From contig QZKJ01000054.1 in the NCBI GenBank assembly GCA_003605035.1, positions 1 through 39,053 of the forward strand: a DNA stretch of 39,053 bases, written 5' to 3'. The notes under the pieces are model-generated. The model was not told the DNA's origin and did no database searches. It saw only the letters and a program-made list of their open reading frames with translations. The position numbers were made by a program, and so were the translations under genes. Position 1 is the first letter of the stretch; each line of letters begins with the position of its first letter. The DNA is from Desulfurivibrio sp. (GTDB lineage: Bacteria > Desulfobacterota > Desulfobulbia > Desulfobulbales > SURF-16). Shown one piece after another: positions 410-38,268 of the stretch.

Positions 410-475
410 ATGATCGTGGTCGTCAATAAAATGAATCGCCCCCATTTGTTGAACAAGAGGTGGCAAGACGTATGA
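410..475 (+). CDS. Possible 21-aa leader peptide coupled to cas3
   Basis: An ATG at 410 follows GAGG (400-403) at a normal spacing of 6 nt, and an in-frame TAA lies two codons upstream, so the frame begins here. It encodes 21 residues and stops with TGA at 473-475, overlapping the ATG of cas3 at 472 in the classic ATGA arrangement. The cas3 ATG itself has only a distant purine-rich match (AAGAGG at 455-460). This suggests that translation of the short frame could feed ribosomes into cas3. The peptide has no recognisable motif, and chance occurrence cannot be excluded for such a short frame. Confidence 0.35.
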   Translation: MIVVVNKMNRPHLLNKRWQDV

Positions 476-2709: not shown

Positions 2710-3578
2710 GCGACAATACCGTTTCCATTCGCGTCTGGGGCGATTTCGCCTGTTTTACTCGGCCCGAGATGAAGGTCGAGAGAGTGAGTTACCCCATCAT
2801 CACTCCATCAGCAGCCCGCGGGATATTTGAAGCTGTCTTCTGGGAACCGCAGATTTTGTACATTATCGATGCGGTTCGGGTGGTGAAAAAGGGCCGTTGG
2901 GTGAGTTTCCGGCGTAACGAGGTGACAAGCCAGGTGAGTATCGACAGCGCCAAAACCTGGATGAAGTCGCCAGAGAAATTTTCGCCTATTCAAGCCGGTG
3001 GTGGCGCTGCTGATGGCACGCAGCGCAATATGCTGGCACTCGGAGAAGTGGAGTATATTTTGACCGCTCAGGTAGGCATGACGGGGATTGGCAGAACTGG
3101 GCGGCACAATATTAAGATTTATCTTGACGAGATCGAACGCCGAGCAAAAAAAGGAAAGTGTTTTCACCGTCCGGCGCTTGGCGTGCGGGAGTTCGCCGCC
3201 GATTTTGAATGGGAGGCGAACCCGCAGGGGGCACTCGAACGCCGCGTTGCTGAGACAAGGCCTGCTAACGACTGGCGGTATGTCTGGCCGGATGAGTACT
3301 TGGGGCTCATGCTCTACGATGTTTTTGATCACAGACAACGCGAGGCCGGTTTCCGATGGCTTACCGATGAGGAGCGGAAATTGTTGGTTAGCGCGAGCAA
3401 GGAATCTGAGAAGAACGGTCGTGGAAGGCGGAAGAAAAAGGGCAAGCCGGATGTCCCACGCTTTGATGGGGCCATAGTCCGTCCACAGGCAGCTTTTTTT
3501 CAGGCCAGGGTACATGAAAGCCGGATGGACTGTCATCCGGATCGGGTGAGGATGATTACTAAGACAGTGGAGGGTTGA
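2706..3578 (+). CDS. cas5c: Cas5c (Cas5d), type I-C pre-crRNA endoribonuclease
   Basis: In type I-C systems, which lack Cas6, Cas5c cuts the pre-crRNA within the repeat and stays bound to the 5' handle in Cascade. The RAMP-type fold is supported by the N-terminal IRVWGDFACFTRPEMKVER and the PSAARGIFEAVFW segment, and by KGKCFHRPALG followed by VREFAADFEW, which matches the family motif GCREF except that the usual Cys is Val here. The length of 290 aa is longer than the common 220-250 aa; the extra part is a Lys/Arg-rich stretch near residues 235-255. The catalytic Tyr/Lys/His of characterised homologues cannot be placed with certainty from one sequence. ATG 2706 overlaps the cas3 stop (ATGA), and cas8c begins 1 nt after this stop codon. 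Confidence 0.93.
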   Translation: MSDNTVSIRVWGDFACFTRPEMKVERVSYPIITPSAARGIFEAVFWEPQILYIIDAVRVVKKGRWVSFRRNEVTSQVSIDSAKTWMKSPEKFSPIQAGGGAADGTQRNMLALGEVEYILTAQVGMTGIGRTGRHNIKIYLDEIERRAKKGKCFHRPALGVREFAADFEWEANPQGALERRVAETRPANDWRYVWPDEYLGLMLYDVFDHRQREAGFRWLTDEERKLLVSASKESEKNGRGRRKKKGKPDVPRFDGAIVRPQAAFFQARVHESRMDCHPDRVRMITKTVEG

Positions 3579-3579
3579 T

Positions 3580-5517
3580 ATGCTTCTTAATGCGCTTTGT
3601 CAATTTGCTTACTCTCGTAAGATCCTTGACGATCTTGCCTTTGAGAACAAAGCGATCCGCTGGGTCATTCCCCTGGACCAGAACGGTAATCTGGTTAGTA
3701 GTGGTTTGATTGAGACCGAGGGAGAGAAGAACCGGGGGAAGGAATTCTCTGCTCCCCGGACCAGTCGAGCCAAGGACGCTGGCGGTATTGCGGAGTTCCT
3801 GGCCGACGGGTTAACCGCAGTCTTCGGTCTGGATACGGAGCCGGATAAAAAATTGACAGAGAAACAGCGCCGAGACCGGGACGCAAACAACACTAAGAAG
3901 CATAAGGATTTCTGGCGGCAGATTCAGGAGGCGACAATAAAGACAGACAGCTTAGCCTTATATGCAGTCTTGGCCTTCCATGATTCTTTTCGGCAGGCTC
4001 CCCTGCATTTTATCCGTTATGGAGTGAAGGCCGATTCCAAAAATCCGAATGAAAAGAAAAAGTGGTGGCTACGCTGTGCTGATGGCACAGAAAAATCAAT
4101 GGGGCCTGACGCCTTCACCTTTCAGGTGGATGGCGATTTGCCCCTACAGGACGAAGAAAATATCCGGCCTCACTGGCGGACGGTCTTTGAAGAGGAGGTG
4201 TCCAGCAAAACTCAAGAAGCCAGACGGGGGGTATGTTTGGTCACGGGCCGGGAGGATGTCCCTATTGCAACGACGCATTTACCTAAGATCAAGGGTGTCC
4301 CTGGAACCCAAGCATTTGGTGCCGCGATTGTCTCTTTTGATAAGCCATCTTTCACCTCCTATGGATTCGACCAAAGTTTCAATGCCCCCGTTTCACTTGA
4401 AGCGGTCTCTGCGTATTGCAATGCCCTGCGAGCCCTTCTTAGCCGGGAAGACCACTCCATTATTATTGGCGCGACTGCCCTGTGCTTCTGGGCCAAAGAG
4501 TCCGAAGACGCCACCAGTTTTCTTGCCCGGATGCTCCGCAGACCCGACCCCCTTGCGGTGGTTGATTTCCTGAAGGCTCCATGGTCCGGTATCGACAGGA
4601 ACGTAGCGAAACTCGATCAGTTCTATTCCGTCACTCTCTGCGGCAACGCCGGCCGCATCGCGGTCCGGCATTGGATGCAGACTACTGTCGAGGCTGCTCG
4701 AGAGAATTTCGTCCAGTGGTTCCATGATCTTGAGATCGACGAAATTCCAATGCCGGAATCAAGGGGCAAGAAAGGTAAGAAGAAAAGTGGGGAACGTGGT
4801 GCGCCGTTAGAGAATGACACAGAGAAGATGCCGCCTCTGGCCGTGTTCCGGCTTGCCTGCACTACGGTGCGGGAGGCTAAGGATCTGAGGCCGGAGGTGC
4901 CAGCCCAGCTATACCAGGCAGCGTTGGAAGGCGCCGCGCCTTCCATTCTGCTGATCAAGCCCATTCTGAACCGGCTTGAAGCAGACTTGCAACGATTCGG
5001 TATGAAAACCCTTTTCCATATATCCCGCTTCGCCCTCTTGAAACTCATTCTTAACCGAAACAGAAAGGAAGGTGGTCCCATGATTGAACCAAAGGTATTT
5101 GAGACCGATGACAAGGCCTACAACTGTGGCCGACTGCTGGCCGTGTTGGCCGAAATTCAGGCCAAGGCCCATGACTATCAACTCTCTGGCGCAGGCGTGG
5201 CGGAACGTTACTTCGGCACCGCTTCGGTGTCGCCCGCCTCGGTTTTCCCGCTTCTGCTGCGGTTGAATCGCCACCACCTCGACAAGATCAGAAAAGCCAG
5301 CGGCAGCGCCTGGAATCAGGAAGGCAATATTCAGGAGGTCCTCTGTCGGCTTGCACCGGAGGCAGCGGGCGCGCCGCCCCAATTCCCCCGGCATCTCGAT
5401 TTGCAGGCCCAAGGCCGTTTCGCCATCGGTTTCTATCAGCAGAAAGCGGAGGTTGAGAAAAGGAAGGAAGCGGCCAGGCAAAATAAGGCAAACGCCAGTA
5501 AAGGAGCGACCCCATGA
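3580..5517 (+). CDS. cas8c: Cas8c (Csd1), type I-C Cascade large subunit
   Basis: Cas8c is the large subunit of the type I-C surveillance complex; it recognises the PAM and helps recruit Cas3. The family is recognised from the start (LLNALCQFAYSRKIL), the internal CLVTGRED followed by HLPKIKGVPG and AAIVSFD, the GATALCFWA segment, and the C-terminal part with CGRLLAVLAEIQ, RYFGTASVSPASVFP and LDLQAQGRFAIGFYQQ. At 645 aa it is at the upper end of the family. A Lys-rich insertion (GKKGKKKSGER) near residue 395 separates the halves. The C-terminal 145 residues can probably also be made separately as Cas11c (see that entry). It ends in an ATGA overlap with the HEPN gene rather than with cas7c, which is unusual for this operon type. 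Confidence 0.95.
   Translation: MLLNALCQFAYSRKILDDLAFENKAIRWVIPLDQNGNLVSSGLIETEGEKNRGKEFSAPRTSRAKDAGGIAEFLADGLTAVFGLDTEPDKKLTEKQRRDRDANNTKKHKDFWRQIQEATIKTDSLALYAVLAFHDSFRQAPLHFIRYGVKADSKNPNEKKKWWLRCADGTEKSMGPDAFTFQVDGDLPLQDEENIRPHWRTVFEEEVSSKTQEARRGVCLVTGREDVPIATTHLPKIKGVPGTQAFGAAIVSFDKPSFTSYGFDQSFNAPVSLEAVSAYCNALRALLSREDHSIIIGATALCFWAKESEDATSFLARMLRRPDPLAVVDFLKAPWSGIDRNVAKLDQFYSVTLCGNAGRIAVRHWMQTTVEAARENFVQWFHDLEIDEIPMPESRGKKGKKKSGERGAPLENDTEKMPPLAVFRLACTTVREAKDLRPEVPAQLYQAALEGAAPSILLIKPILNRLEADLQRFGMKTLFHISRFALLKLILNRNRKEGGPMIEPKVFETDDKAYNCGRLLAVLAEIQAKAHDYQLSGAGVAERYFGTASVSPASVFPLLLRLNRHHLDKIRKASGSAWNQEGNIQEVLCRLAPEAAGAPPQFPRHLDLQAQGRFAIGFYQQKAEVEKRKEAARQNKANASKGATP
5080..5517 (+). CDS. 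cas11c: Probable internal-start product Cas11c (small subunit) within cas8c
   Basis: In characterised type I-C systems the small Cascade subunit Cas11c is translated from an internal start in the 3' part of cas8c. Here codon 501 of cas8c is an ATG (5080) preceded by AAGGAAGG (5065-5072) about 7 nt upstream, a far better ribosome binding site than expected by chance inside a gene. The product would be 145 aa, beginning MIEPKVF and containing the helical segments CGRLLAVLAEIQ and RYFGTASVSPASVFP. Position, length and reading frame fit the known arrangement. Expression is inferred from sequence only. Confidence 0.65.
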   Translation: MIEPKVFETDDKAYNCGRLLAVLAEIQAKAHDYQLSGAGVAERYFGTASVSPASVFPLLLRLNRHHLDKIRKASGSAWNQEGNIQEVLCRLAPEAAGAPPQFPRHLDLQAQGRFAIGFYQQKAEVEKRKEAARQNKANASKGATP

Positions 5518-5906
5518 CCAGGGATGAACACATCGCCTACTGGCTTGTAGAGTCGGATAAAGACCTGTCGGTCATGGAAAGCCTCTTCGCAAGCGGCCAT
5601 TACACCTGGTCGCTCTTTGTCGGACACCTGGCTCTGGAAAAGGTGCTGAAGGCCCTGTATGTGAAACAGGTCGAGGTCCAGGTTCCGCATATTCACCATC
5701 TGCTGAAAATCGCGAGAGACTGCGGTCTGCAATTGACCAGTGATCAGGAAGATTTTCTTCTGGAAGTGACAACGTATAACCTTAAAGGCAGATATCCGGA
5801 CTACAAGCAGAGTTTTTCCCGGAAGGCAACCGGCGAATTTACCGCAAAACGTATCGCACAGATCCAGGAGATGCAGCAATGGCTCAAACAACAAGTGGCA
5901 GCATGA
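5514..5906 (+). CDS. HEPN-domain protein (probable toxin of a HEPN/MNT pair)
   Basis: A 130-aa all-helical protein of the HEPN family (PF05168-like): it starts with HIAYWLVESDKDL and continues with LFVGHLALEKVLKALY, HIHHLLKIA and the typical RYPDY segment near residue 94. In HEPN/MNT modules the HEPN partner is usually the toxin (an RNase) and the nucleotidyltransferase the antitoxin. I do not see a clear Rx4-6H catalytic motif, nor the Rx4HxY motif of the HepT subgroup, so its activity is uncertain. Its ATG overlaps the cas8c stop by 4 nt, and the MNT gene starts inside its 3' end. The pair is thus built into the cas operon between cas8c and cas7c, and should be co-transcribed with Cascade. 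Confidence 0.85.
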   Translation: MTRDEHIAYWLVESDKDLSVMESLFASGHYTWSLFVGHLALEKVLKALYVKQVEVQVPHIHHLLKIARDCGLQLTSDQEDFLLEVTTYNLKGRYPDYKQSFSRKATGEFTAKRIAQIQEMQQWLKQQVAA

Positions 5907-6202
5907 TTGACGACCAGGTGAGACGGTATATCCAGACCTTGCACGATAACAGGATAGCGGTCTGGCGTCTCTATCTTTTTGGTTCCCACGCCAAGGGCAC
6001 GGCACGCGCGGAGAGCGATATAGATTTGGCGGTTTTCTGGGACAGGGAAGAGATCGATGGCTTTGATGAGGATGTGCAGCTCATGCGCCTGACCCGCAAC
6101 GTGGATCTCCGCATTGAGCCCCATTCCTTTTCACGCAAGGATTTTGAAAATCCTGATCCGTTTGTAAAGGAGATCATTTCCACTGGGCAGCGCATCCTGT
6201 AG
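5879..6202 (+). CDS. MNT-type nucleotidyltransferase (probable antitoxin)
   Basis: Minimal nucleotidyltransferase of 107 aa. The signature GSHAKGTARAESDID (residues 35-49) matches GSx10DxD, in which the two Asp bind metal; VDLRIEP near residue 80 probably carries the third acidic residue. In MntA/HepT-like modules this enzyme neutralises the HEPN partner by adding AMP. I prefer ATG 5879, which has AGGAG at 5866-5870 with 8 nt spacing, over ATG 5903, which overlaps the HEPN stop codon as ATGA but has no visible ribosome binding site. A 97-nt gap follows before cas7c; it contains no gene and no strong promoter that I can see. Confidence 0.87.
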   Translation: MAQTTSGSMIDDQVRRYIQTLHDNRIAVWRLYLFGSHAKGTARAESDIDLAVFWDREEIDGFDEDVQLMRLTRNVDLRIEPHSFSRKDFENPDPFVKEIISTGQRIL

Positions 6203-6299
6203 TGGCAAAAAAAACAAGATTTCGCCGGGGTAATGATGACTATCCTGACGAATCGGCTTGCGAAATATCTGTAAACCAACTCGAATGGAGGAAAAATAC

Positions 6300-7292
6300 A
6301 TGAACACCATCGTCGGCAACCGTCATGACATTCTCGTTCTTTTTGATGTCTCACAGGGGAACCCCAATGGAGACCCAGACGCCGGCAATATGCCGCGAAT
6401 CGAGCCCAACAGCAATCGGGGCATTGTTTCGGATGTCTGCCTGAAGCGAAAGATCAGGAACTATGTGGAATTGGTGAAACCGGGACGTGTCACCTATCAG
6501 TATAAGAATAAAGAATATGAGCAAGGTTACGCCATTCTGGTACAGCAGGGGGCGATTCTTAACAATGAGATTGTCAGAGGCATTACCGCGGCAACTGAAA
6601 AAATGGATGACAAGGCCGAGAAAAATCAGAAGGCCGAAGCTGCAATGAGCTGGCTTTGTCGAGAGTTCTTTGATATCCGCACCTTTGGTGCAGTTCTTTC
6701 CACTGGTGATGACATCATGAAGGGTTCTGCCTTTGGCCAGGTGCGGGGGCCGGTGCAGTTCACCTTTGGCCAGAGTTTTCATCCCATAACGCCGCTTGAG
6801 ATCACCGTGACCCGTTGCGCTGTGACCAAGGAGGAAGACAAGGAGAAGGAGCGGACCATGGGACACAAGCACGTTGTGCCTTACGCTCTTTATGCCGCCA
6901 AGTGTTATATTTCACCGCCCTTTGCCGAGCGTACCGGATTTACCACCCGCGATCTCGAACTCTTCTTTGAGGCCCTGGTCGAGATGTTTACTCACGACCG
7001 TTCTGCGGCGCGGGGAGAGATGGTGGTCCGCGGCATCTATGATTTCGAGCACGTGGGTTCCCAGCACCCGAATAACGCCGAGCAAAACAAGAAGGAGGCT
7101 CGGCTTGGCTGTTATCATGCCCATAAGCTGTTTGAGGGCGTCAAGGTGGGATTAAAGGAGGGCAAGACTTTTCCTGAGGCATTTGATGATTATTCAATCT
7201 CTTGCGAATGGATAAAAAACAACCTGCCAAAGGGTGTTGTGCTTCATTTTCGGCATGAACTGCCCATGAAAACCATACAATTTCAACAATGA
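6300..7292 (+). CDS. cas7c: Cas7c (Csd2), type I-C Cascade backbone subunit
   Basis: Cas7c polymerises along the crRNA spacer to form the Cascade backbone. Family features are clear: RHDILVLFDVSQGNPNGDPD at the N-terminus, the conserved PRI, DVCLKRKIRNYV, FFDIRTFGAVLSTG, GQVRGPVQFTFGQS, and the C-terminal CEWIKNNLP. The length of 330 aa is slightly above the usual 280-300. I chose ATG 6300 because GGAGG lies at 6287-6291 with 8 nt spacing; an upstream in-frame ATG at 6285 would contain that site. The stop overlaps the cas4 start by 4 nt. This is the first cas gene with its own strong ribosome binding site after the inserted HEPN/MNT pair. Confidence 0.95.
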   Translation: MNTIVGNRHDILVLFDVSQGNPNGDPDAGNMPRIEPNSNRGIVSDVCLKRKIRNYVELVKPGRVTYQYKNKEYEQGYAILVQQGAILNNEIVRGITAATEKMDDKAEKNQKAEAAMSWLCREFFDIRTFGAVLSTGDDIMKGSAFGQVRGPVQFTFGQSFHPITPLEITVTRCAVTKEEDKEKERTMGHKHVVPYALYAAKCYISPPFAERTGFTTRDLELFFEALVEMFTHDRSAARGEMVVRGIYDFEHVGSQHPNNAEQNKKEARLGCYHAHKLFEGVKVGLKEGKTFPEAFDDYSISCEWIKNNLPKGVVLHFRHELPMKTIQFQQ

Positions 7293-7996
7293 TGTATTCT
7301 GATGACGATCTTCTGCCCCTCTCGGTCCTCGCCGATCTCCTGTTCTGTGAGCGCCGAGCTGCTCTTCATCAAATCGAAGGCCTGTGGAAAGATAACCTCT
7401 TCACCGTCGAAGGCACGTATCTCCACCAGAAAGTGGATGATGATTTACCTGTTGAATCGCGTGGTGATCTCCGTATCACCAGAGGGCTCTTGTTGCACTC
7501 TCGGGAGTTGGGTTTGTCTGGCAAGGCGGATGTGGTGGAATTTTGCCGAATAGCCGATGTCGGAGGGGCGCACTATTCATCCTCTGGGACTTTAGCCGCC
7601 GCCATACCGCTCTCTGGATCATCTGGGCTCTGGCGTCCATACCCGGTTGATTACAAACGTGGCAGGCTACGGCATGAGGAAGGCTTCGAGGCCCAGCTCT
7701 GCGCCCAGGCCCTCTGTCTGGAGGAGATGCTGAAGGTGGCTGTGCCGGAGGGGGCGATCTATTATGGCAAGCCCCGCCGCCGGCTGGTGGTGGTCTTTGA
7801 TGACAGTCTGCGCTCCAAGACCCGTGAGGCGGCTCGCCGTCTGCATGAGTTGGTCAGCAGTGGCCGTACTCCCCAGGCGCGCTATGAAAAAAAATGCGAG
7901 AGCTGTTCCTTGCTCTCTGTCTGCATGCCGAAAATAACGGGGTCGGGCCGGAGTGCGCAGGGGTACATAGCCAAGGCTCTTGCCCAGGATCTATGA
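7289..7996 (+). CDS. cas4: Cas4 exonuclease, type I-C (intact copy)
   Basis: Cas4 trims prespacers and helps choose PAM-containing ends for Cas1-Cas2. The RecB-like nuclease residues are present: His46 (YLHQK), Asp81 (GKADVVEF), Asp121 and Lys123 in VDYKRG, then EAQLCAQALCLEE. The four Fe-S cluster cysteines are Cys20 (LFCERR) and Cys203, Cys206 and Cys212 (CESCSLLSVC). At 235 aa it is slightly longer than most Cas4 proteins, with a short insertion near residue 95-110. It starts inside the cas7c stop (ATGATG). In ordinary type I-C loci cas1 follows directly; here 3.3 kb of unrelated genes intervene, and a second cas4 remnant lies just before cas1. Confidence 0.94.
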   Translation: MMYSDDDLLPLSVLADLLFCERRAALHQIEGLWKDNLFTVEGTYLHQKVDDDLPVESRGDLRITRGLLLHSRELGLSGKADVVEFCRIADVGGAHYSSSGTLAAAIPLSGSSGLWRPYPVDYKRGRLRHEEGFEAQLCAQALCLEEMLKVAVPEGAIYYGKPRRRLVVVFDDSLRSKTREAARRLHELVSSGRTPQARYEKKCESCSLLSVCMPKITGSGRSAQGYIAKALAQDL

Positions 7997-9771: not shown

Positions 9772-10794
9772 ATGATTCAAAAAATGGGAAAATCCGAAAA
9801 CATGTCTTCAGATTTTGGTGAGATCATCCTGTATCAGTCCGAGGAAGGGAAATCAGCACTCGATGTCCATCTCAAGGATGAAACCGTCTGGTTGACTTTA
9901 AACCGGATTGCGGATCTGTTCGAAAGAGATAAATCCGTTATTTCCCGCCATTTTCGCAATGTATTCCAGTCTGGCGAGCTGGTAAAAGAGGCAGTTGTTG
10001 CAAAAAATGCAACAGTTCAAAGCGAAGGTGACAGGCAGGTTACCCGGCAAGTCGAATACTACAATCTGGATGCCATCATCTCCGTGGGCTACCGGGTTAA
10101 TTCCAAACGGGGCACCCAGTTCCGCATCTGGGCCAGCTCGGTTTTAAAAGACCACCTGGTGCGCGGTTATTCGCTTAATCAGCGGCGGCTGGCGGAAAAA
10201 GGCGTGGACGAGGTGCGGCAGGTTCTGCGTCTGCTGGCCGGTACCCTGGAAAGTCACAACCTGGTCAGCGATGAAGGCCTGGCGGTGCTGGAGGTCGTCA
10301 ACCGCTACGCCAGGACCTGGCAGCTTCTTCTGCAGTATGACGAAGACAGGCTGCCGGTGCCCGCGACCAAACACGACACCAGATCGGTTCTGGAGATTGA
10401 CCAGGCCCGGCAGGCCATTGCCACCCTGAAAAACGACTTGCTGACCAGGGGAGAGGCGACTGACCTTTTCGGCCACGAACGGGGCCACGGCCTTGCCGGC
10501 CTTATCGGCGCGGTGCAACAGTCCTTCGGCGGCCAGGATCTGTATCCAAGCGTGGAGGAGAAGGCGGCCCATCTTCTCTATTTTGTCATCAAGGATCATC
10601 CTTTTACTGATGGCAACAAGCGGATCGGTTCCTTTCTCTTTTTGCTGTTTCTCCAAGCCAATGGCCTGCTGGATGCGGGAAGCTTCGACAACCGGGCGCT
10701 CGTGGCTCTGGCCCTGCTGACCGCTGCCAGCGAAGCAGGGCAGAAGGAGCTGATGATTCGTTTGATTATGAACCTGATCGGCGGGGACGGATAA
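9772..10794 (+). CDS. RhuM-type DNA-binding protein fused to a Fic/Doc domain
   Basis: A 340-aa two-domain protein. Residues ~12-150 match the virulence RhuM family (GEIILYQSEEGKSALDV, VWLTLNRIADLFERDKSVISRHF, YNLDAIISVGYRVNSKRGTQFRIWA, LKDHLVRGYSLNQ). Residues ~180-335 form a Fic/Doc domain with the active-site motif HPFTDGNKR at 276-284, in which His276 is the expected catalytic base. The motif has Lys where classical Fic AMP transferases have GNGR, as in Doc and related enzymes, so the target modification could be AMPylation or phosphorylation. It diverges from yefM-yoeB across the operator region and converges with the higA remnant. Several in-frame ATGs (9772, 9784, 9802) compete; none has a strong ribosome binding site. 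Confidence 0.88.
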   Translation: MIQKMGKSENMSSDFGEIILYQSEEGKSALDVHLKDETVWLTLNRIADLFERDKSVISRHFRNVFQSGELVKEAVVAKNATVQSEGDRQVTRQVEYYNLDAIISVGYRVNSKRGTQFRIWASSVLKDHLVRGYSLNQRRLAEKGVDEVRQVLRLLAGTLESHNLVSDEGLAVLEVVNRYARTWQLLLQYDEDRLPVPATKHDTRSVLEIDQARQAIATLKNDLLTRGEATDLFGHERGHGLAGLIGAVQQSFGGQDLYPSVEEKAAHLLYFVIKDHPFTDGNKRIGSFLFLLFLQANGLLDAGSFDNRALVALALLTAASEAGQKELMIRLIMNLIGGDG

Positions 10795-22142: not shown

Positions 22143-23036
22143 ATGCAGAGCAAACCGGTACACCTGCCGGTCCTGCTGGATGAGGTAATCCACTACCTGG
22201 CCCCGCGGGATGGCGGCCTCTATGTGGACGGGAACCTGGGGCTCGGCGGGCACAGCGCGGCGATCCTGGCGGCCAGCAGCCCGGGCGGCAGGGTGATAGG
22301 GTTTGACTGGGATGAGGAGGCCCTGGCCCGGGCCAGGGTCAATCTGGCCGGGTATCAGGGCAGAGTGGAGTTTGTCCGGCGCAATTTTGCGGAGCTCAGT
22401 GAGGTTCTGCCTGCCTTGGGGGTGGACCGGGTGGACGGTCTGCTGCTCGATCTGGGGCTCTCCTCCCTGCAGCTGGACGCCAGCAGCCGGGGCTTTAGCT
22501 TTCAGGGTTGCCAGCCCCTTGACATGCGCATGGACAGCAGAAGCCCGGAAACGGCGGCGGATCTGTTGAACCGGGCCGGCGAGCAGGAACTGGCCGACAT
22601 TTTCTATCTGTACGGAGAGGAACGGCAGGCCAGGCGGATTGCGGCGCAGGTGGTTGACGCCCGCAAAAAGAGTGAGCTTACGAGTACGGATCAGCTGGTA
22701 AAGATTGTTGAAAACGCGGTGCCGCGCAGGTTCTGGCCAAAAAAAATCCATGTTGCCACCAAGGTTTTCCAGGCCCTGCGCATCGCGGTGAACCGGGAGC
22801 TCGACAATCTTCAGCAGATTTTAGCAAGCGTGGCGGATTTTGTGAAACCGGGAGGGCGTATCTGTGTAATTTCTTTTCATTCCCTGGAGGATCGTCTGGT
22901 GAAGCGGGCCTTTCGAAATAACCCTGCCCTGGAGCTGGTAACGGCAAAGGCGGTGACGGCGGCGGATAACGAGATCCTGGCAAATCCGCGCTCAAGAAGC
23001 GCCAGGCTGCGCGTTGCCGCGGTGCGGGGTGAGTGA
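22143..23036 (+). CDS. rsmH: 16S rRNA (cytosine(1402)-N(4))-methyltransferase
   Basis: RsmH (MraW) methylates N4 of C1402 in 16S rRNA using S-adenosylmethionine. At 297 aa, with VHLPVLLDEVIHYLAP, the SAM-binding GNLGLGGHSAAIL, DGLLLDLGLSSLQLD, SRGFSFQGCQPLDMRMD and the late CVISFHSLEDRLVKRAFR, it is a typical member. There is no obvious ribosome binding site before ATG 22143, so translation may depend on mraZ 3 nt upstream. Its TGA shares one base with the ftsL ATG. Confidence 0.97.
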   Translation: MQSKPVHLPVLLDEVIHYLAPRDGGLYVDGNLGLGGHSAAILAASSPGGRVIGFDWDEEALARARVNLAGYQGRVEFVRRNFAELSEVLPALGVDRVDGLLLDLGLSSLQLDASSRGFSFQGCQPLDMRMDSRSPETAADLLNRAGEQELADIFYLYGEERQARRIAAQVVDARKKSELTSTDQLVKIVENAVPRRFWPKKIHVATKVFQALRIAVNRELDNLQQILASVADFVKPGGRICVISFHSLEDRLVKRAFRNNPALELVTAKAVTAADNEILANPRSRSARLRVAAVRGE

Positions 23037-23416
23037 TGTCCGTGCAACTGTCTTCACGCTATAACTACAAGCCGAGCCTCAGCAGAAAGCTGAGTAAAAA
23101 GGGGCCCGGCCAGAAATTGACCCTGGGCGGCTGGTTCTGGAAGCTGTCCGGGGTAATCATCGTTGTGGCCACCCTGATCGGCATGGCGGGCAGTTACTGG
23201 TTTTCGTGGAGCATCAGGCGGGGGCTGGACAGTTTGACCGGCGTGCAGGGAGAAAAGCATGCCTTGCAGCAGGTGAGCGTCAAGCTGCGGGGCCAGAAGG
23301 GACAGCTGCTGGACAGAAAACGAATCGAGACCGTTGCCGCAGCAAAACTTTCCCTCCACCCGACGGTTGAACAGAGTGCCGGCGGCGGGGTGATCGTACG
23401 GATTCCTGAACCATGA
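23036..23416 (+). CDS. ftsL: FtsL-like bitopic division protein
   Basis: A 126-aa protein with a basic cytoplasmic tail, one membrane segment (LSGVIIVVATLIGMAGSYWF, residues ~37-56) and a short periplasmic coiled-coil region (GLDSLTGVQGEKHALQQ, LRGQKGQLLDRKRIETVAAAKL). Topology, size and position between rsmH and the ftsI homologue identify it as FtsL, which normally forms the FtsQLB complex and activates FtsWI; sequence conservation in this family is poor. I use ATG 23036 (TGATG overlap with rsmH); a GTG one codon earlier is possible. It overlaps the next gene by 4 nt. Confidence 0.8.
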   Translation: MSVQLSSRYNYKPSLSRKLSKKGPGQKLTLGGWFWKLSGVIIVVATLIGMAGSYWFSWSIRRGLDSLTGVQGEKHALQQVSVKLRGQKGQLLDRKRIETVAAAKLSLHPTVEQSAGGGVIVRIPEP

Positions 23417-25455
23417 AAGGCGACAAGGGTCCGTTCGGCAGCAAGTGGATTCATCGGGAGAGCGAGGAGAAGAAGAAAAAAAGGATTGCCAGACTGCAGC
23501 GGCTGGCAGCGCTTCTCGTTCCGCTCATGCTGCTTGTCTCCTATTTTCTGTTTTTCCGCCACACCCCTGCCGGGGATGACGGCAGCGTAAAGAACGAGAC
23601 GGTCGGGACAGAGGAGGATCTTCTCCTGGCCGTCCCGGAGAAAAAGGAAGAAATCAGGCGCCGCAATATTTATGACCGCAACCTTAATGAACTTGCCATC
23701 AGCTTTAAAGTGGACTCGATCTATGTCAAGCCCCTGGAATTTGACAACATTGAAAAAACGGTCGGGCTGCTGGCCGATGCTCTGAATCTTGATGAAAAAG
23801 ATGTGCTGGATGAACTGAAAACCCAGAGGAGCTACAAATGGGTGGTGAAAAATATTTCTCCTGAGAAGGCAGCCGCGGTTGCGGCCTTGAATCTTCCAGG
23901 AGTTTATTTTTATGAGCAGGAGCAACGATATAACCCCAGCCGGGCGAACATGGGACAGATCATCGGCGAGGTGAAGGACGGCCACGGCCTGTCCGGGGTG
24001 GAACTCTTTTATGACAATCTGCTGCTCGGTGGTGCGGCGGCGGATGCGGCAGGCGGCGGCAAAAGTCTGGTGCTCACCCTGGACGCAAAAATGCAATTGC
24101 TGCTGGAGCAGGAAATGACGGCACTGTTGAATGAGATACGGCCGGCGGATGGGGCGGCTGAAGCGATGACCGCGGTGAGCGCCCTGGTGATGGACGTGGA
24201 CCAGGGTGAAGTTCTGGCCTATGTCAAGCTGCCGTTCTTTGCCGCCACCAGGCTGGGCATGGCGGGCAGCGTTGAAGGGGTGGACCGCATGATGGCCGGC
24301 CAGGTGGACCCCGGAGCCCTGTCGCTGATCTTCAAGGCTGCGGCAGATTTCGAACGGGCGCAGCAGGCCCTTGCCGCCGGCCAGGGCGAAGAGGGGCAGA
24401 CCCCGGTTGAAAAACCGGTCAAGTCGCTGACGCCGAGGATAATGAAAAAAATTCGGGAAGGCCCGCAGAAATCGCCATGGGTAAAGCTGCAGGACGGCTC
24501 CTATGCATCCGACTGGCTGGCCGATGCGCTGGAGGTTGAGCAGGCCGATGCGGAAAACGGCCAGCTGGATTTTTCCGATTTCGGCAAAATCCTGGCCAGC
24601 GTCGGCCAGTGCAGGCTTGACCTGCCTGGAGATAATGGCGGCAAGGAAACGGGGTTGGGCCTGCTGTGCGGTTATGCCGCACTGGTGAACGGCGGCGGCG
24701 CGGTTGCTCCCCATCTGCTGCAGGCCACTCTTGCCGGGTCGGGAAAACCTGAGGAGTGGCCCTGGCCGTCACAGGAAAACAAGGTCATCGGCCCTGAAGC
24801 AAGCCGTGACCTTGTTCTTTTTTTAGGGGAAAAGACCCATGCCGCGGATAACGTGCTGGTGGCCGAAATTCTGCGGCCCCGGGCCGATATGGCAGCTGCC
24901 GGGGAAGAGCTGGCGCCGCCGCCTGCGCCCGCAACCGGGCCGGCCGGCGCCGCGGCAGAACCCGACGCGCCGGCAGCAAAACCGCAGGACCCGGTCATCC
25001 GCCATTGCGACGGCCTGGTGCTGGCCTCCATCACGGTAAGCGAGCCGGAACTGGCGATGCTGCTGGTCATTGATGACGCCAGCATCGATCTCAAGCAGTC
25101 ATCCCCGCTCAAGCATCATGCCGGCGCCTTTCTGCAGGCGGCCCTCAGATTGCATCAGCAGCAGGAGAGCCCCGGAGCCCTGCCGCCGCCGGTTTCCAGG
25201 GAGGAGATCTTTCATCGCTGGATGCTGCGCAACAAGCAGCTGGGCTTTGATCTGCTGGGGGAAAGGAAAAGTGATGCGGATACCATGATCGATGTGCGGG
25301 GCCTGAGCATCCGCAAGGCTCTGCAGGAATTGGATCGCTATCATATCAAGGTGGTGGTTGAAGGTTCGGGTATCGTCAAAAAGCAGCACCCCGCGGCCGG
25401 CAGCAAATTGAAAGAGGGGACCCTGGTGATCCTCAAGGCTGAGACCAGGCGGTAG
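23413..25455 (+). CDS. FtsI/PBP2b-like protein with a degenerate transpeptidase domain and C-terminal PASTA
   Basis: This 680-aa protein occupies the ftsI place of the dcw cluster. It has a basic N-terminus, one membrane anchor (LAALLVPLMLLVSYFLFF, ~31-48), the PBP dimerisation landmarks (RRRNIYDRNLNELAISF near 76-92; LSGVELFYDNLLLGG near 194-208) and a C-terminal PASTA domain (~624-677, DVRGLSIRKALQEL). The transpeptidase fold can still be followed (LVMDVDQGEVLAYVKLP; GYAALVNGGGAVAPHLL near 420-436), but the catalytic motifs are gone. EPGSxxK is DPGAL, with Ala302 in place of the nucleophile and the nearest Lys at 308; SxN appears as Ser366-Asp367-Trp368; the KTG region is replaced by a Pro/Ala-rich linker (~499-535). 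The frame is intact with normal codon use, so it looks like a maintained pseudo-enzyme rather than a pseudogene. Confidence 0.88.
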   Translation: MKGDKGPFGSKWIHRESEEKKKKRIARLQRLAALLVPLMLLVSYFLFFRHTPAGDDGSVKNETVGTEEDLLLAVPEKKEEIRRRNIYDRNLNELAISFKVDSIYVKPLEFDNIEKTVGLLADALNLDEKDVLDELKTQRSYKWVVKNISPEKAAAVAALNLPGVYFYEQEQRYNPSRANMGQIIGEVKDGHGLSGVELFYDNLLLGGAAADAAGGGKSLVLTLDAKMQLLLEQEMTALLNEIRPADGAAEAMTAVSALVMDVDQGEVLAYVKLPFFAATRLGMAGSVEGVDRMMAGQVDPGALSLIFKAAADFERAQQALAAGQGEEGQTPVEKPVKSLTPRIMKKIREGPQKSPWVKLQDGSYASDWLADALEVEQADAENGQLDFSDFGKILASVGQCRLDLPGDNGGKETGLGLLCGYAALVNGGGAVAPHLLQATLAGSGKPEEWPWPSQENKVIGPEASRDLVLFLGEKTHAADNVLVAEILRPRADMAAAGEELAPPPAPATGPAGAAAEPDAPAAKPQDPVIRHCDGLVLASITVSEPELAMLLVIDDASIDLKQSSPLKHHAGAFLQAALRLHQQQESPGALPPPVSREEIFHRWMLRNKQLGFDLLGERKSDADTMIDVRGLSIRKALQELDRYHIKVVVEGSGIVKKQHPAAGSKLKEGTLVILKAETRR

Positions 25456-31047: not shown

Positions 31048-31158
31048 CGAACAGGGTTGACCTGCTCGGGCCTGCTCCACTGGCAAGGGCGCAGGGACAG
31101 CGGGCATCTGAACTGATAAAGAGAAACGACGAACCGGTATCAGACACCAACCGAGAAA

Positions 31159-31356
31159 ATGAAAATGAAAATGGAAAAGGTATGTTGCCGCTGCAAGCGC
31201 AACGAACAGGCAGGCAGGTGGATTCCCCTGCAGGACACGGACACCACCCTCTATTCCTATGGGTTTTGTCCGAGCTGCTATCAGCAGACCCTGGCGGAGA
31301 TTAAAATGGCCTCACCGAAGTACAGCTGTCGGCGGCCGCCGGAAAGGGTGCTGTAA
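31159..31356 (+). CDS. Small two-CxxC (zinc-ribbon-like) protein in the ftsW position
   Basis: A 65-aa protein with VCCRCKRNEQ near the start and YGFCPSCYQQTLAEI after a 25-residue spacer; the two Cys pairs could bind one zinc ion. The pattern (CxxC... W.P.. ...GfCPsC) recalls the cysteine-rich tail found on some signalling proteins of Desulfobacterota and related groups, here free-standing. Three alternative ATGs (31159, 31165, 31171) start it, with no strong ribosome binding site. It sits between murD (111-nt gap) and murG (13-nt gap), co-directional. Function unknown. Confidence 0.65.
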   Translation: MKMKMEKVCCRCKRNEQAGRWIPLQDTDTTLYSYGFCPSCYQQTLAEIKMASPKYSCRRPPERVL

Positions 31357-33917: not shown

Positions 33918-34922
33918 ATGTATGGCACTGCAGTGTACAGCGGGAAACGGGAGACGATGATGCCGCCACGGGCCGGGACTGCCAGAGCGTTGCCCCCGTG
34001 GGCGCCGGCGCTGCAGCAGGCCATGGCGGGCCATCCCGGGGAAGCGATTGTCTGGCATGGCAGTCTTGCCGGCTACACCACCTTCAAGGTGGGCGGCAGG
34101 GCCGAGGCCATCGTTTTCCCCCGGGGCCGCGACGAGCTGTCCGGCCTTGTCCGCCGCCTGCACGAGCTGGCGGTGCCGTGGGTCATTCTCGGCCGGGGCA
34201 GCAATGTGGTGATCGCCGATGAGGGGCTCAGGGGCGTGGTCATCGTGCTCGGCCGTGAGTTCGCCGCCATCGAGCTGCTTGAGGACGCCGGGGACAGCGT
34301 GCTGGTCCGGGTCGAGGCGGGCTGCAGTCTGGTCAAGCTGGTCAACTGGGCGGTGGAGCGGGGCTATGCCGGCCTCGAGTTCGCCGCGGGCATCCCCGGC
34401 AGTGTCGGCGGGGCGATTGTCATGAACGCCGGGGCCTGGCAGCGGGAGATGAAAGACGTGCTGGAGCGGGTCGGCATCATGGACAGCCGGGGCGTCATCG
34501 CAGCCAGCGATATTGATGCCATGCGTTTCGCCTACCGGACCTGGGGAGCGGAGCAGGGCAGCATCGCCCTGGAAGGATTTGTGCGCTTGACAAAAGACAC
34601 GCCGGCCAGGCTCAGGGAGATCTGCAGCGACTACCGGCAGCGCCGCCGGCAGCGGCAGCCGCAGAATATGGCCAGCGGCGGCTCCTTTTTCAAGAACCCG
34701 CCGGGCGGCAGAACCGCTGGGCAGCTGATTGACCAGGCCGGGCTGAAGGGCCGCACCGTGGGCGGGGCCATGGTGTCGCCGGTGCATGCCAACTTCATCG
34801 TCAACACGGGCAATGCCACGGCCGGGGACATTATTGAGCTGATGGGGATTGTCCAGCAGGCCGTCCAGGAACGTTACGGCATCATCCTGGAGCCTGAAGT
34901 CAAGATTCTGGGCCGGCCATGA
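33918..34922 (+). CDS. murB: UDP-N-acetylenolpyruvoylglucosamine reductase
   Basis: MurB reduces UDP-GlcNAc-enolpyruvate to UDP-MurNAc with FAD and NADPH. FAD-binding parts are YTTFKVGGRAEAIVFP, VILGRGSNVVIADEG and AAGIPGSVGGAIVMNAGAW; the substrate region has GGSFFKNPPGGRTAGQLID, with the catalytic Ser in GSFFKNP, and the late Glu in LEPEVKILG. The arrangement fits the type II (shorter) MurB class. It is 334 aa with a ~30-residue N-terminal extension before the conserved part. ATG 33918 has GGAGG close by. It overlaps ftsQ by 4 nt; no ddl gene follows. Confidence 0.95.
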   Translation: MYGTAVYSGKRETMMPPRAGTARALPPWAPALQQAMAGHPGEAIVWHGSLAGYTTFKVGGRAEAIVFPRGRDELSGLVRRLHELAVPWVILGRGSNVVIADEGLRGVVIVLGREFAAIELLEDAGDSVLVRVEAGCSLVKLVNWAVERGYAGLEFAAGIPGSVGGAIVMNAGAWQREMKDVLERVGIMDSRGVIAASDIDAMRFAYRTWGAEQGSIALEGFVRLTKDTPARLREICSDYRQRRRQRQPQNMASGGSFFKNPPGGRTAGQLIDQAGLKGRTVGGAMVSPVHANFIVNTGNATAGDIIELMGIVQQAVQERYGIILEPEVKILGRP

Positions 34923-35764
34923 AAAGGAAGAAAAAGGGATTAACGGTTTACCGGGCCAGCAATCACAGCTGGTTCGGCGACCAGCTGCTGAAGGTGATCA
35001 GCATCTGCTTCGGGGTGCTGATCGTGGGCGGCATCATGTGTCTCATCGCCTATCAGGGCTTGAGCCGGTCGATCTTTTTCCAGGTGGAGATGGTGGACAT
35101 CAAGGGCTGCGTCAGGACCACGCCCACCGAGATTCTCTCCTGGAGCGGGCTGGATGTGAAAACCAATCTGTGGGCGACACGCATCGGCCGCATCAGGAAG
35201 AAACTGGAGAGCCAGCACTGGATCGCAGCCGCCGAGGTGACCAGGAACTGGCCGAACAAGCTGGCCATTGTGGTGCGGGAGCGCAAGCCCCTGGCCATGG
35301 TGAGTCTGAAATCAGGGCTCTATTATGTGGACCGCGGCGGCGTGGTCTTTGCCGAGGTGCTGCCCGTTGATGACCGGGACTTTCCGGTGATCACCGGCCT
35401 GGAGATCGACAAGGCGCCCGGGGTCGAAGAGGAGCCGCGGCTGGCCGAGGCCCTTGGTTTTATCGTCCTGGCGGAAAAGGGGGCGGTGGCCCTGCCGAAA
35501 CAGAATATTTCGGAAATTCACCTGACCCCCGAGGGGGATCTGGTGCTGTTCATGGCGGACCATGCCTTCCCGGTTTATCTCGGCAGGGGAGAGCTGAAGA
35601 CCAAATATTATCGATTAAGCACGGTGCTTTCCTGGCTCTACCGCAAAGAGAAGTACGATCTCGCCGCGGCCATCGAGATGAATTACCTGCCCGGCGATGA
35701 AACGGACGCGGAAGGCGGGGGCAAGGTGCTGGTGCGCCTGAGTGATTACAAGCCGGCTCATTAG
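34919..35764 (+). CDS. ftsQ: Cell division protein FtsQ
   Basis: FtsQ is a bitopic protein that, with FtsL and FtsB, regulates septal peptidoglycan synthesis. The 281-aa product has a basic cytoplasmic tail, one membrane segment (VISICFGVLIVGGIMCLIAY, ~23-42), a POTRA domain (VEMVDIKGCVRTTPTEILSW) and the FtsQ beta domain (NWPNKLAIVVRERKPLAMV, YYVDRGGVVF, LTPEGDLVLFMADHAFPVYLG). Motifs and position make the call firm. It starts in the murB stop (ATGA), and ftsA follows 9 nt later. Confidence 0.93.
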   Translation: MKRKKKGLTVYRASNHSWFGDQLLKVISICFGVLIVGGIMCLIAYQGLSRSIFFQVEMVDIKGCVRTTPTEILSWSGLDVKTNLWATRIGRIRKKLESQHWIAAAEVTRNWPNKLAIVVRERKPLAMVSLKSGLYYVDRGGVVFAEVLPVDDRDFPVITGLEIDKAPGVEEEPRLAEALGFIVLAEKGAVALPKQNISEIHLTPEGDLVLFMADHAFPVYLGRGELKTKYYRLSTVLSWLYRKEKYDLAAAIEMNYLPGDETDAEGGGKVLVRLSDYKPAH

Positions 35765-35773
35765 AGGAAATAT

Positions 35774-37006
35774 ATGGCGAATGTGGAAAGAGGGGAGTTG
35801 ATTGTCGGCCTTGATATCGGCACGACAAAGATCTGCGCCGTGGTGGGCGAGGTGGTCGATAACCGGGTGGATATAGTCGGCGTCGGCAGCCATCCCTCCA
35901 TCGGTCTGCGCAAAGGCGTGGTGGTCAATATCGAAAGCACGGTCAACTCCATCAAGAAGGCGGTGGCCGAAGCGGAAATGATGGCGGGCTGCAATATTTC
36001 CTCGGTCTATGTGGGCATTGCCGGCAGTCATGTCACCGGGCAGAACAGCGACGGGGTCATCGCCGTCAAGAACCGCGAGATCCGCCAGGAGGAAATCGAC
36101 CGGGTGGTGGAGAATGCCAAGGCCATCCCCCTGGGCCAGGACAAGGAGGTGATCCATGTCATGCCCCAGGAGTTCAGGGTGGACGGGCAGGGCGGCATTC
36201 AGGACCCGCTGGGCATGACCGGCGTGCGGCTCGAGGCCAAGGTGCATATCGTCACCGGCTCGGTAACCGCGGTGCATAACATCATCAAGTGCTGCAACCG
36301 GGCCGGGCTGGAGGTGGATGACGTGGTGCTGGAGCCCATCGCCTCGGCCGAGGCGGTGCTCACCCCGGAAGAGCGGGAACTGGGGGTGGCCCTAATTGAC
36401 ATCGGCGGCGGCACCTCGGATCTGGCCGTGTTCGCGGAGAACTGCATCCAGCGCACCTTTGTGCTGGGCATCGGCGGCAACAATCTGACCAACGATCTGT
36501 CCATCGGCCTGCGCACCCCGCTCAAAGCGGCGGAGAAGCTCAAGGAAAAATACGGCTGCGCCATCTCGTCGATGATCGACAAGGATCAGGCCATTGAGGT
36601 GCCCAGCGTGGGCGGCCGCAAATCCCGCCGGCTTTCCCAGCGGGTCATGGGGGAGATCCTCGAGCCGCGGGTGGAGGAGATGCTGACCCTGATCAATTAC
36701 GAGCTGGTCAACTGCGGGGTGAAGAATATGGTCAACGCCGGGGTGGTGCTGACCGGCGGCACCTCGATGCTGATCCATATCCTTGATCTGGCCGAGCAGA
36801 TTTTTGATCTGCCGGTGCGCATCGGCTATCCGCGCAATATCGGCGGGGTGACGGATATCGTCAACACCCCGCAATGCGCCACCGGCGTCGGCCTGGTCAT
36901 CTACGGCATGCGGAGCGAATCGGAAAGGGGTTTCCGGGACCGGGGCGAGAAGGGCATCGGCGGCCTGGCCAAGAAGATAAAAGGGCTGTTCGGTAAATTA
37001 ATGTAG
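35774..37006 (+). CDS. ftsA: Cell division protein FtsA
   Basis: FtsA is the actin-like protein that tethers FtsZ to the membrane. At 410 aa it has the actin-fold motifs IVGLDIGTTKICAVVGEV, VYVGIAGSHVTGQNSDG (1C region), GVALIDIGGGTSDLAVF (phosphate 2) and AGVVLTGGTSMLIHILDLA (adenosine), and the C-terminal amphipathic helix GLAKKIKGLFGKLM, which would insert in the membrane. It has the normal start and spacing, 86 nt before ftsZ. Confidence 0.97.
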   Translation: MANVERGELIVGLDIGTTKICAVVGEVVDNRVDIVGVGSHPSIGLRKGVVVNIESTVNSIKKAVAEAEMMAGCNISSVYVGIAGSHVTGQNSDGVIAVKNREIRQEEIDRVVENAKAIPLGQDKEVIHVMPQEFRVDGQGGIQDPLGMTGVRLEAKVHIVTGSVTAVHNIIKCCNRAGLEVDDVVLEPIASAEAVLTPEERELGVALIDIGGGTSDLAVFAENCIQRTFVLGIGGNNLTNDLSIGLRTPLKAAEKLKEKYGCAISSMIDKDQAIEVPSVGGRKSRRLSQRVMGEILEPRVEEMLTLINYELVNCGVKNMVNAGVVLTGGTSMLIHILDLAEQIFDLPVRIGYPRNIGGVTDIVNTPQCATGVGLVIYGMRSESERGFRDRGEKGIGGLAKKIKGLFGKLM

Positions 37007-37092
37007 AGCAATTGCGGGTTTGGTTGTAAATTACAGGCAGGATTTCCGCGGGCGACGACGCTCGGCGAAGTTCATCAGGAAGGGGGCGAACT

Positions 37093-38268
37093 ATGGAGTT
37101 TCAAATGGCGGAAGACACATCAAGGGTGAAGATCAGGGTCTTCGGTATTGGCGGCGGCGGTGGCAATGCCGTGAATACCATGGTGGAAAGCAAGCTCCAG
37201 GGGGTGGAATTCATTGCGGCCAATACGGATCTGCAGGTGCTGGATCATTCCAAGGCGGACGTGAAACTGCAGCTCGGGCCCACGGTCAGCAAGGGATTCG
37301 GCGCCGGCGCCAATCCTGACAAGGGACGGGAATCGGCGGAGGAGAGTATTGACGAGATCAGAAACTGTCTGAAGGGCAGCGACATGGTCTTCATCACCGC
37401 GGGGCTCGGCGGCGGCACCGGCACCGGCGCCGCACCCATCGTGGCCAAGGTGAGCAAGGAACTGGGGGCGCTCACCGTGGCGGTGGTGACCAAGCCCTTT
37501 GTCTTTGAAGGCAAGGCCCGCATGCGCAATGCCGAGATCGGCTGGGAGCAGCTCAAAAAACACGTGGATACCATCATCACCATTCCCAATGACCGCATCC
37601 TGTCGCTCACCCAGAAGAAAACCCGCTTTCTCGACGGCATGAAAATGGCCGATAACGTACTGGTGCAGGCGGTGAAAGGCATCACCGATCTGATCAACCT
37701 GCCGGGTTACATCAATCCGGACTTTGCCGATGTGTGCACGGTGATGAATGAGATGGGACCGGCCCTGATGGGTGCCGGGGTCGGCATCGGCGAAAACCGG
37801 GCCATCGAAGCGGTCAACATGGCCATAGCGAGTCCGCTGCTGCAGGATATCAGCATTGACGGGGCCAGGGGCGTGCTGGTCAATATCTCCGCCCGGGAAG
37901 ACACCCTGACCATGGCCGAGGTGACCGAGGCCACCAGCAAGATTTACGAAGAGGTGCATGATGAGGCCAATATCATCCTGGGCGTCATCTTTGATGATTC
38001 ACTGGGAGAGGAGCTGCGGGTCACGGTGGTTGCCACCGGCATCCGGGTGGCGGAGGAGCTGGAGCCTCTGCCGGACAAGGTGACTCCGCTGCCCAAAAAG
38101 GCGGAACCGAAGGCGGCCAGCGGCACCCTGCCCTTCAACCAGGCCAAGGTACCGCAGGTGGCCAACGGTGGCGGCTATCCTGAGCCCAGGAAAAAATATA
38201 CCACGGTCAGAATTTTTGACGAAGATGAACTGGATGAGCCGACCTTTATCCGCCGTAATGAAAATTGA
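37093..38268 (+). CDS. ftsZ: Cell division GTPase FtsZ
   Basis: FtsZ polymerises into the division ring. Motifs: GIGGGGGNAVNTM, AANTDLQVLDHS, the tubulin signature GGGTGTG at 106-112, NPDKGRESAEE, and NPDFADVCTVMNEMGPALMG (T7 loop region). The C-terminal linker (~320-370) is short, and the conserved tail is DELDEPTFIRRNEN, a recognisable variant of the peptide that binds FtsA. At 391 aa it is normal. GGGGG lies ahead of ATG 37093. It is the last gene of the cluster. Confidence 0.98.
   Translation: MEFQMAEDTSRVKIRVFGIGGGGGNAVNTMVESKLQGVEFIAANTDLQVLDHSKADVKLQLGPTVSKGFGAGANPDKGRESAEESIDEIRNCLKGSDMVFITAGLGGGTGTGAAPIVAKVSKELGALTVAVVTKPFVFEGKARMRNAEIGWEQLKKHVDTIITIPNDRILSLTQKKTRFLDGMKMADNVLVQAVKGITDLINLPGYINPDFADVCTVMNEMGPALMGAGVGIGENRAIEAVNMAIASPLLQDISIDGARGVLVNISAREDTLTMAEVTEATSKIYEEVHDEANIILGVIFDDSLGEELRVTVVATGIRVAEELEPLPDKVTPLPKKAEPKAASGTLPFNQAKVPQVANGGGYPEPRKKYTTVRIFDEDELDEPTFIRRNEN

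Follow-up and report, generated by a model that had tools for sequence, protein, structure and literature searches.

An FtsI homologue without catalytic motifs in the division cluster of a Desulfurivibrio and its relatives

The gene and its product

The window analyzed here, a 39,053-nucleotide stretch of Desulfurivibrio sp. (contig QZKJ01000054.1, assembly GCA_003605035.1), carries a division and cell wall (dcw) cluster in the order rsmH, an ftsL-like gene, the gene under study, murE, murF, mraY, murD, murG, murC, murB, ftsQ, ftsA and ftsZ. The gene under study (23413..25455, like all dcw features below on the + strand) has 680 codons and encodes a homologue of FtsI that lacks the transpeptidase motifs. 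We call it pseudo-FtsI, based on its open reading frame (ORF), Pfam matches, alignment and an AlphaFold2 (AF2) model. Its position between ftsL and murE, already read from the letters alone, is borne out by ORF order and domain content and is that of a class B penicillin-binding protein (PBP) gene, although ftsL itself is a weak match: the 127-aa FtsL-like product (23033..23416) was assigned by position and by eye, with PF04999 at only E 0.12, below the cut-off. The ORF of pseudo-FtsI is uninterrupted, its start ATG overlaps the stop of ftsL, and the product comprises 680 aa. Its codon use correlates with that of the neighbours at r 0.91 (0.75-0.98 for the other eight genes) against 0.69 and 0.38 in the shifted frames, which agrees with the earlier claim of an intact frame with neighbour-like codon use.

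The sequence-only reading had also proposed that the PBP scaffold and a PASTA domain are retained, and both were found. The dimerisation or pedestal domain (residues 83-188; 23659..23976) matches PF03717 with E 6e-10 and 40.2 bits, above the cut-off of 24.4, as in class B PBPs. The PASTA domain (residues 624-675; 25282..25437; Pfam E 1e-10) is, by alignment, the stretch of the protein with the highest conservation in the order. Between both lies a region of predicted transpeptidase fold without catalytic residues (215-590; 24055..25182), delineated by the AF2 model and structural matches. In structural alignments the model matches class B PBPs, the transpeptidase fold included, all along residues 84-584, and no second domain of this type is seen. 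In Pfam searches up to E 1 the transpeptidase domain PF00905 gave no match in pseudo-FtsI of the window, which is not among the 32 of 35 members matched in alignment A3 (34 of 37 named loci plus the window protein). In a phmmer search of the PDB, pseudo-FtsI aligned with chains of FtsI and of further class B PBPs; the best alignment covers residues 83-304, and none extends past ~317. The cut-offs of the named NCBIfam families for FtsI, PBP2 and SpoVD were missed; the best score (115.9 bits, with the cut-off at 688) belongs to the comparison with C. difficile SpoVD (7rcz), where the match is limited to residues 80-313. By its entry title, the 7rcz structure was solved as a complex with ampicillin.

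Alignment and model locate the places of all three motifs. The helix that bears SxxK in active PBPs (residues 301-321; 24313..24375) has Ala302 within DPGAL and Leu305 at +3, and the SxN site is Ser-Asp-Trp (366-368; 24508..24516), both as previously read. For KTG, the absence stood while the place did not: it corresponds to the strand 481-489 (24853..24879; VLVAEILRP, with the conserved Glu485), and the Pro/Ala linker formerly taken for it (490-527; 24880..24993) is an insertion right behind this strand, weakly constrained judging from its sequence and its ratio of nonsynonymous to synonymous substitutions (dN/dS).

Loss of the active site and selection across the order

Among 97 searched genomes of the order, which we take to be Desulfobulbales, homologues were detected in 95 and 94 were aligned; G048 and G088 gave no match and G081 only a PASTA piece. 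Seven of the 94 are fragments below 500 aa (G004, G022, G025, G030, G035, G068, G083). Length was used to recognize them, as an automated count of rows spanning the active site gave 93, misled by fragments with spread-out ends. None of the 94 homologues combines SxxK in the helix with KTG at its place; the loss is order-wide. The Ser and Lys of SxxK are present in 23 of 23 active FtsI proteins of the outgroups. In the SxN columns of the order, Ser occurs in 54 and Asn in 5 of 94 homologues; K, T and G of KTG occur in 4, 3 and 6 of 94, in columns whose alignment is uncertain because of the linker. The FtsI of D. alkaliphilus (G024), with its closed genome of 3,097,763 bp on one contig, is dead too. 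Glu485 (window numbering) on the strand at the KTG place is invariant in the 19 rows of alignment A1 and, among the 35 rows of A3, present in 90% or more; judged from these alignments, it is a signature of the dead family.

Some homologues disturb this clean picture. Ser occupies the first SxxK column in one of 94 (G010, with no Lys at +3), Lys the second column in four, and three (G013, G044, G059) have S-x-F-K a few residues downstream of the SxxK place, without KTG. RTG or KSG occurs within the linker of two homologues (G004, G040), neither with SxxK. An ordered SxxK..SxN..KTG pattern, searched anywhere in the protein, matched 23 of 98 proteins; the 20 triples listed all start ahead of the active-site helix, between residues 40 and 231.

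The check for purifying selection called for by the sequence-only reading gave whole-gene dN/dS values of 0.21-0.29 in five pairs within the genus, with dS above 1 in the two most distant pairs; twelve neighbouring genes gave 0.05-0.26 in one pair. By part, the values were 0.06-0.13 for the pedestal, 0.09-0.19 for PASTA, 0.09-0.72 for three transpeptidase segments and 0.27-0.96 for the linker. In active outgroup FtsI (n=23) mean identity is 0.50 for the transpeptidase domain, 0.43 for the pedestal and 0.38 for PASTA; the corresponding means in the order (one sequence per family, 20 draws) are 0.25, 0.39 and 0.47. Constraint has shifted off the catalytic domain to the pedestal and PASTA. A sequencing artefact or a strain-specific decay is ruled out by the order-wide state, the single-contig genomes and purifying selection.

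FtsW and the wider phylum

The sequence-only reading overlooked the loss of ftsW as well as the spread of the dead state beyond the order. In ftsW-bearing relatives the gene lies at the murD-murG junction, which in the window comprises 211 bp (31048..31258), and no ftsW was found in the dcw cluster of this draft genome. Proteins of the SEDS (shape, elongation, division and sporulation) family were searched with PF01098 at E 1e-10. They were matched in 94 of the 97 order genomes, exactly once in 90 and not at all in three; the two or three matches in the remaining four are partial pieces by their coordinates, and no genome among the 97 has two full matches. Within a phylum draw of 148 genomes, 141 fall outside the order, and these have at least two SEDS matches in 111 cases, one in 28 and none in two. 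In a SEDS tree, 12 order members group at 100/100 with the non-dcw SEDS of the outgroups, taken as RodA, and apart from dcw FtsW. The single SEDS protein of the window genome lies in this RodA clade and its gene adjoins PBP2; likewise, the single-contig genome of D. alkaliphilus has one SEDS gene beside its PBP2. Judged from these searches, FtsW appears to have been lost in the order. As a separate observation, rodA of another single-contig genome (G031, C1:137697-138757) gave two neighbouring matches, each in an open frame of its own.

FtsI and FtsW go together in 65 dcw loci, a nonrandom set with one genome each in which SxxK and KTG were scored. All 25 loci with ftsW have an FtsI with both motifs, and in each of the 40 loci lacking ftsW the FtsI is dead or shrunken; the four pattern matches seen in the latter group fall away from the active-site places. 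As ftsW is gone as well, the two losses are tied together. Of the 40, the order contributes 28 loci and nine further families contribute 12, among them a closed genome of 2,025,450 bp, probably that of Dissulfurimicrobium hydrothermale. The FtsW-less loci outside the order were picked for having one SEDS in the genome, while the FtsW loci are mostly strong matches with enough flank. Lengths of FtsI in some FtsW-less families outside the order are 560, 457, 440, 340, 326-329 and 248-267 aa, and the 560-aa protein (among L249-L257) still matches PBP_dimer, transpeptidase and PASTA. Beyond the 65 loci, G201 has no ftsW in its dcw cluster and a 299-aa remnant.

Some genomes do not fit neatly. In the FtsI of an outgroup with two SEDS proteins (G139, L178), SxxK and SxN are present, yet KTG is replaced by KTA. 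Outside the 65 loci, G134 and G176 combine SxxK and KTG with no SEDS match, and G097, G141, G221 and G231 combine both motifs with one SEDS and no ftsW in the fetched stretch, which is short for G097, G141 and G231 and was not inspected for ftsW in G221. We take these six cases as draft gaps. FtsI was examined in all of the 28 one-SEDS genomes outside the order except G155, G156, G181 and G204.

Catalysis may have been lost once or several times. In the SEDS tree, families f28 and f66 join the order (96/92). Concatenation of six dcw proteins gave a FastTree with four groups composed of pseudo-FtsI members only, and a quick IQ-TREE tree requires three changes. A single clade of all 18 pseudo-FtsI rows was not rejected by the approximately unbiased (AU) test (p 0.369). 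Constraining 16 or 15 of these rows (without f35/f65, and also without f28) gave a likelihood ~18 above the free tree; thus, the free tree search had not found the best tree.

In the window, the genes for FtsQ (POTRA and FtsQ_DivIB_C; 34919..35764) and for FtsA and FtsZ (35774..38268) are intact, and the genome has a gene of the DivIC/FtsB type (E 3e-20). In two loci of FtsW-less lineages, L219 (G182) and L220 (G227), the place of murE holds frames of 982 and 1001 aa, respectively, and there is no separate murF; judged by length and position, this looks like a MurE-MurF fusion. Apart from the dcw cluster, the window contains type I-C CRISPR-Cas genes (Cas3, Cas5c, Csd1, Csd2, Cas4) and an array, located at 460-7996 and from ~12852 to beyond 16058. 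The array, which itself extends beyond 16058, has some 50 copies of a 32-nt repeat. A protein with RhuM-family and Fic domains (9772-10794) adjoins this locus.

A proposed role for pseudo-FtsI and candidates for the septal synthase

We consider it likely that pseudo-FtsI is a natural pseudoenzyme derived from FtsI, which most probably serves the divisome as a scaffold or regulator without catalysis of its own; the septum of these cells is probably built by a different synthase. The structural or regulatory role that had been suggested for a pseudo-transpeptidase is supported by the order-wide loss, the kept fold, purifying selection and the shift in conservation. The protein appears to have kept its membrane anchor, its pedestal, a folded yet inactive transpeptidase domain and PASTA. 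Contact with FtsQ-FtsB-FtsL would be made by the pedestal and transmembrane helix, septal peptidoglycan would be held or sensed by PASTA together with the empty transpeptidase domain, and this assembly would recruit or activate RodA-PBP2 and/or a class A PBP for septum building. We infer all protein contacts, the inactivity of the protein in vitro and which synthase replaces FtsW-FtsI.

Several observations weigh against this interpretation. The pedestal as dock for FtsQ-FtsB-FtsL is a basis taken from other bacteria. The AF2 model is weak in places, with a mean predicted local distance difference test (pLDDT) score of 70.7 and 163 residues below 50, including parts of the pedestal (173-194). 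Distant pairs of the genus show less constraint, with dN/dS up to 0.72 in the C-terminal transpeptidase part and up to 0.81 on the KTG strand. In three families outside the order only a remnant of 248-340 aa is left, and by eye the remnants of f35 and f65 keep PASTA and not the pedestal; consequently, the parts kept differ between lineages.

FtsW and FtsI are commonly held to be the universal septal wall synthase (PMC10693644). Compared to FtsI/PBP3, for example of P. aeruginosa, pseudo-FtsI lacks SxxK, SxN and KTG, no FtsW was found for it, and it carries the Pro/Ala linker. It also has PASTA, which is aligned in active FtsI of its own phylum as well. As in C. difficile (PMC10693644, PMC12539705), FtsW is missing, class A PBPs are available and the class B PBP would have a non-catalytic role; in contrast to this Firmicute, where the class B PBP has a dispensable catalytic activity, the dcw-encoded protein is dead across the order. 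A structural role independent of catalysis is known from B. subtilis PBP2B S309A (PMC5656894), a laboratory mutant needing PBP3, whereas here the state is natural and fixed. A gene list for cable bacteria and Desulfobulbus gives ftsW, ftsN and zipA as absent in four Desulfobulbaceae (PMC7873302). The same paper counts FtsI among the divisome-recruited proteins; what it states on FtsI activity in septal synthesis concerns E. coli, and its accessible text makes no mention of a dead active site. The absence of FtsW in four Desulfobulbaceae is already published. No description of an FtsI family with a dead active site turned up in the literature on the topic, with subscription papers mostly outside our coverage.

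That the true division transpeptidase is encoded elsewhere and the window gene is a spare paralogue seems highly improbable to us. In Bacilli, ftsW lies outside the dcw cluster (PMC10693644), so the genes of the FtsW-FtsI pair can move. However, PF03717 (up to E 1) finds only two proteins in the window genome, a draft of 118 contigs and 93.6% completeness: pseudo-FtsI and PBP2, the latter a class B PBP with STYK, SCD and KTG. Four further PF00905 proteins, their motifs intact by eye, are read as class A PBPs by Pfam or size; the glycosyltransferase domain is clear in three, and partial and below the cut-off in the fourth (L004, a cut frame). The lack of any order genome with two full SEDS matches and the D. 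alkaliphilus genome, with one SEDS beside PBP2 and a dead FtsI (the PF03717 search being that of the window genome), also speak against a spare paralogue. A second FtsI or FtsW elsewhere was rejected on the PF03717 and SEDS searches. We give even less credence to a decaying, functionless gene. It is shortened (248-340 aa) in some lineages outside the order, but purifying selection, the intact frame, the conserved place and the order-wide retention argue against decay, as does a PASTA domain more conserved than in active relatives; dN/dS near 1 was not seen in pedestal or PASTA.

Since only RodA-PBP2 and class A PBPs remain, both are candidates for the septal synthase, either alone or together. 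RodA-PBP2 (MrdA) might make side wall and septum, with pseudo-FtsI as the septal adaptor directing it. We regard this as conceivable, if rather doubtful: it is the sole pair of SEDS and class B PBP left in the window genome, and SEDS proteins require class B partners (PMC8078798), whereas in C. difficile RodA and PBP2 elongate and a class A PBP divides (PMC10693644). It is a possibility worth holding tentatively that the septum is made by a class A PBP under the regulation of pseudo-FtsI, as C. difficile PBP1 is regulated by PBP3, the closest experimental precedent (PMC12539705). The glycosyltransferase domain PF00912 has five matches in the window genome and occurs in every one of 78 order genomes. 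Outside the order, six genomes without FtsW (G109, G116, G121, G182, G226, G227) have a single match, so one such protein may suffice. On the other hand, no class A PBP was found that tracks the loss. Two or three PF00912 matches occur in further genomes lacking FtsW (G120, G152, G205; G178, G201, G223), and there is none in G174, which is a draft genome belonging to the f28 genus. A ~1100-aa class A PBP with a split transpeptidase match (L005, L284-L295) occurs in each of the seven order members included in the phylum draw, but also in relatives with at least two SEDS (G112, G148, G208), and it has no match in the FtsW-less G109, G116, G120 and G121. This large class A PBP as common substitute was therefore rejected, as its distribution does not track FtsW loss.

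Taken together, we favor pseudo-FtsI as a non-catalytic divisome component. With less confidence than not, we further suggest that the order and additional lineages of the phylum dismantled FtsW-FtsI, that RodA-PBP2 (or else a class A PBP) took the place of FtsW as partner of pseudo-FtsI, and that one synthase set would serve elongation and division, with the dead PBP telling where and when. This trade may have taken place repeatedly, with remnants of 250-340 aa that lack a full transpeptidase domain as its end point. The order represents a natural separation of function, in which catalysis and FtsW are gone and the remainder of FtsI is kept and constrained. The role of FtsI besides cross-linking becomes testable in the cultured D. 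alkaliphilus and Dissulfurimicrobium hydrothermale, and the finding bears on cable bacteria and on the effect to be expected of FtsI-directed beta-lactams in this group.
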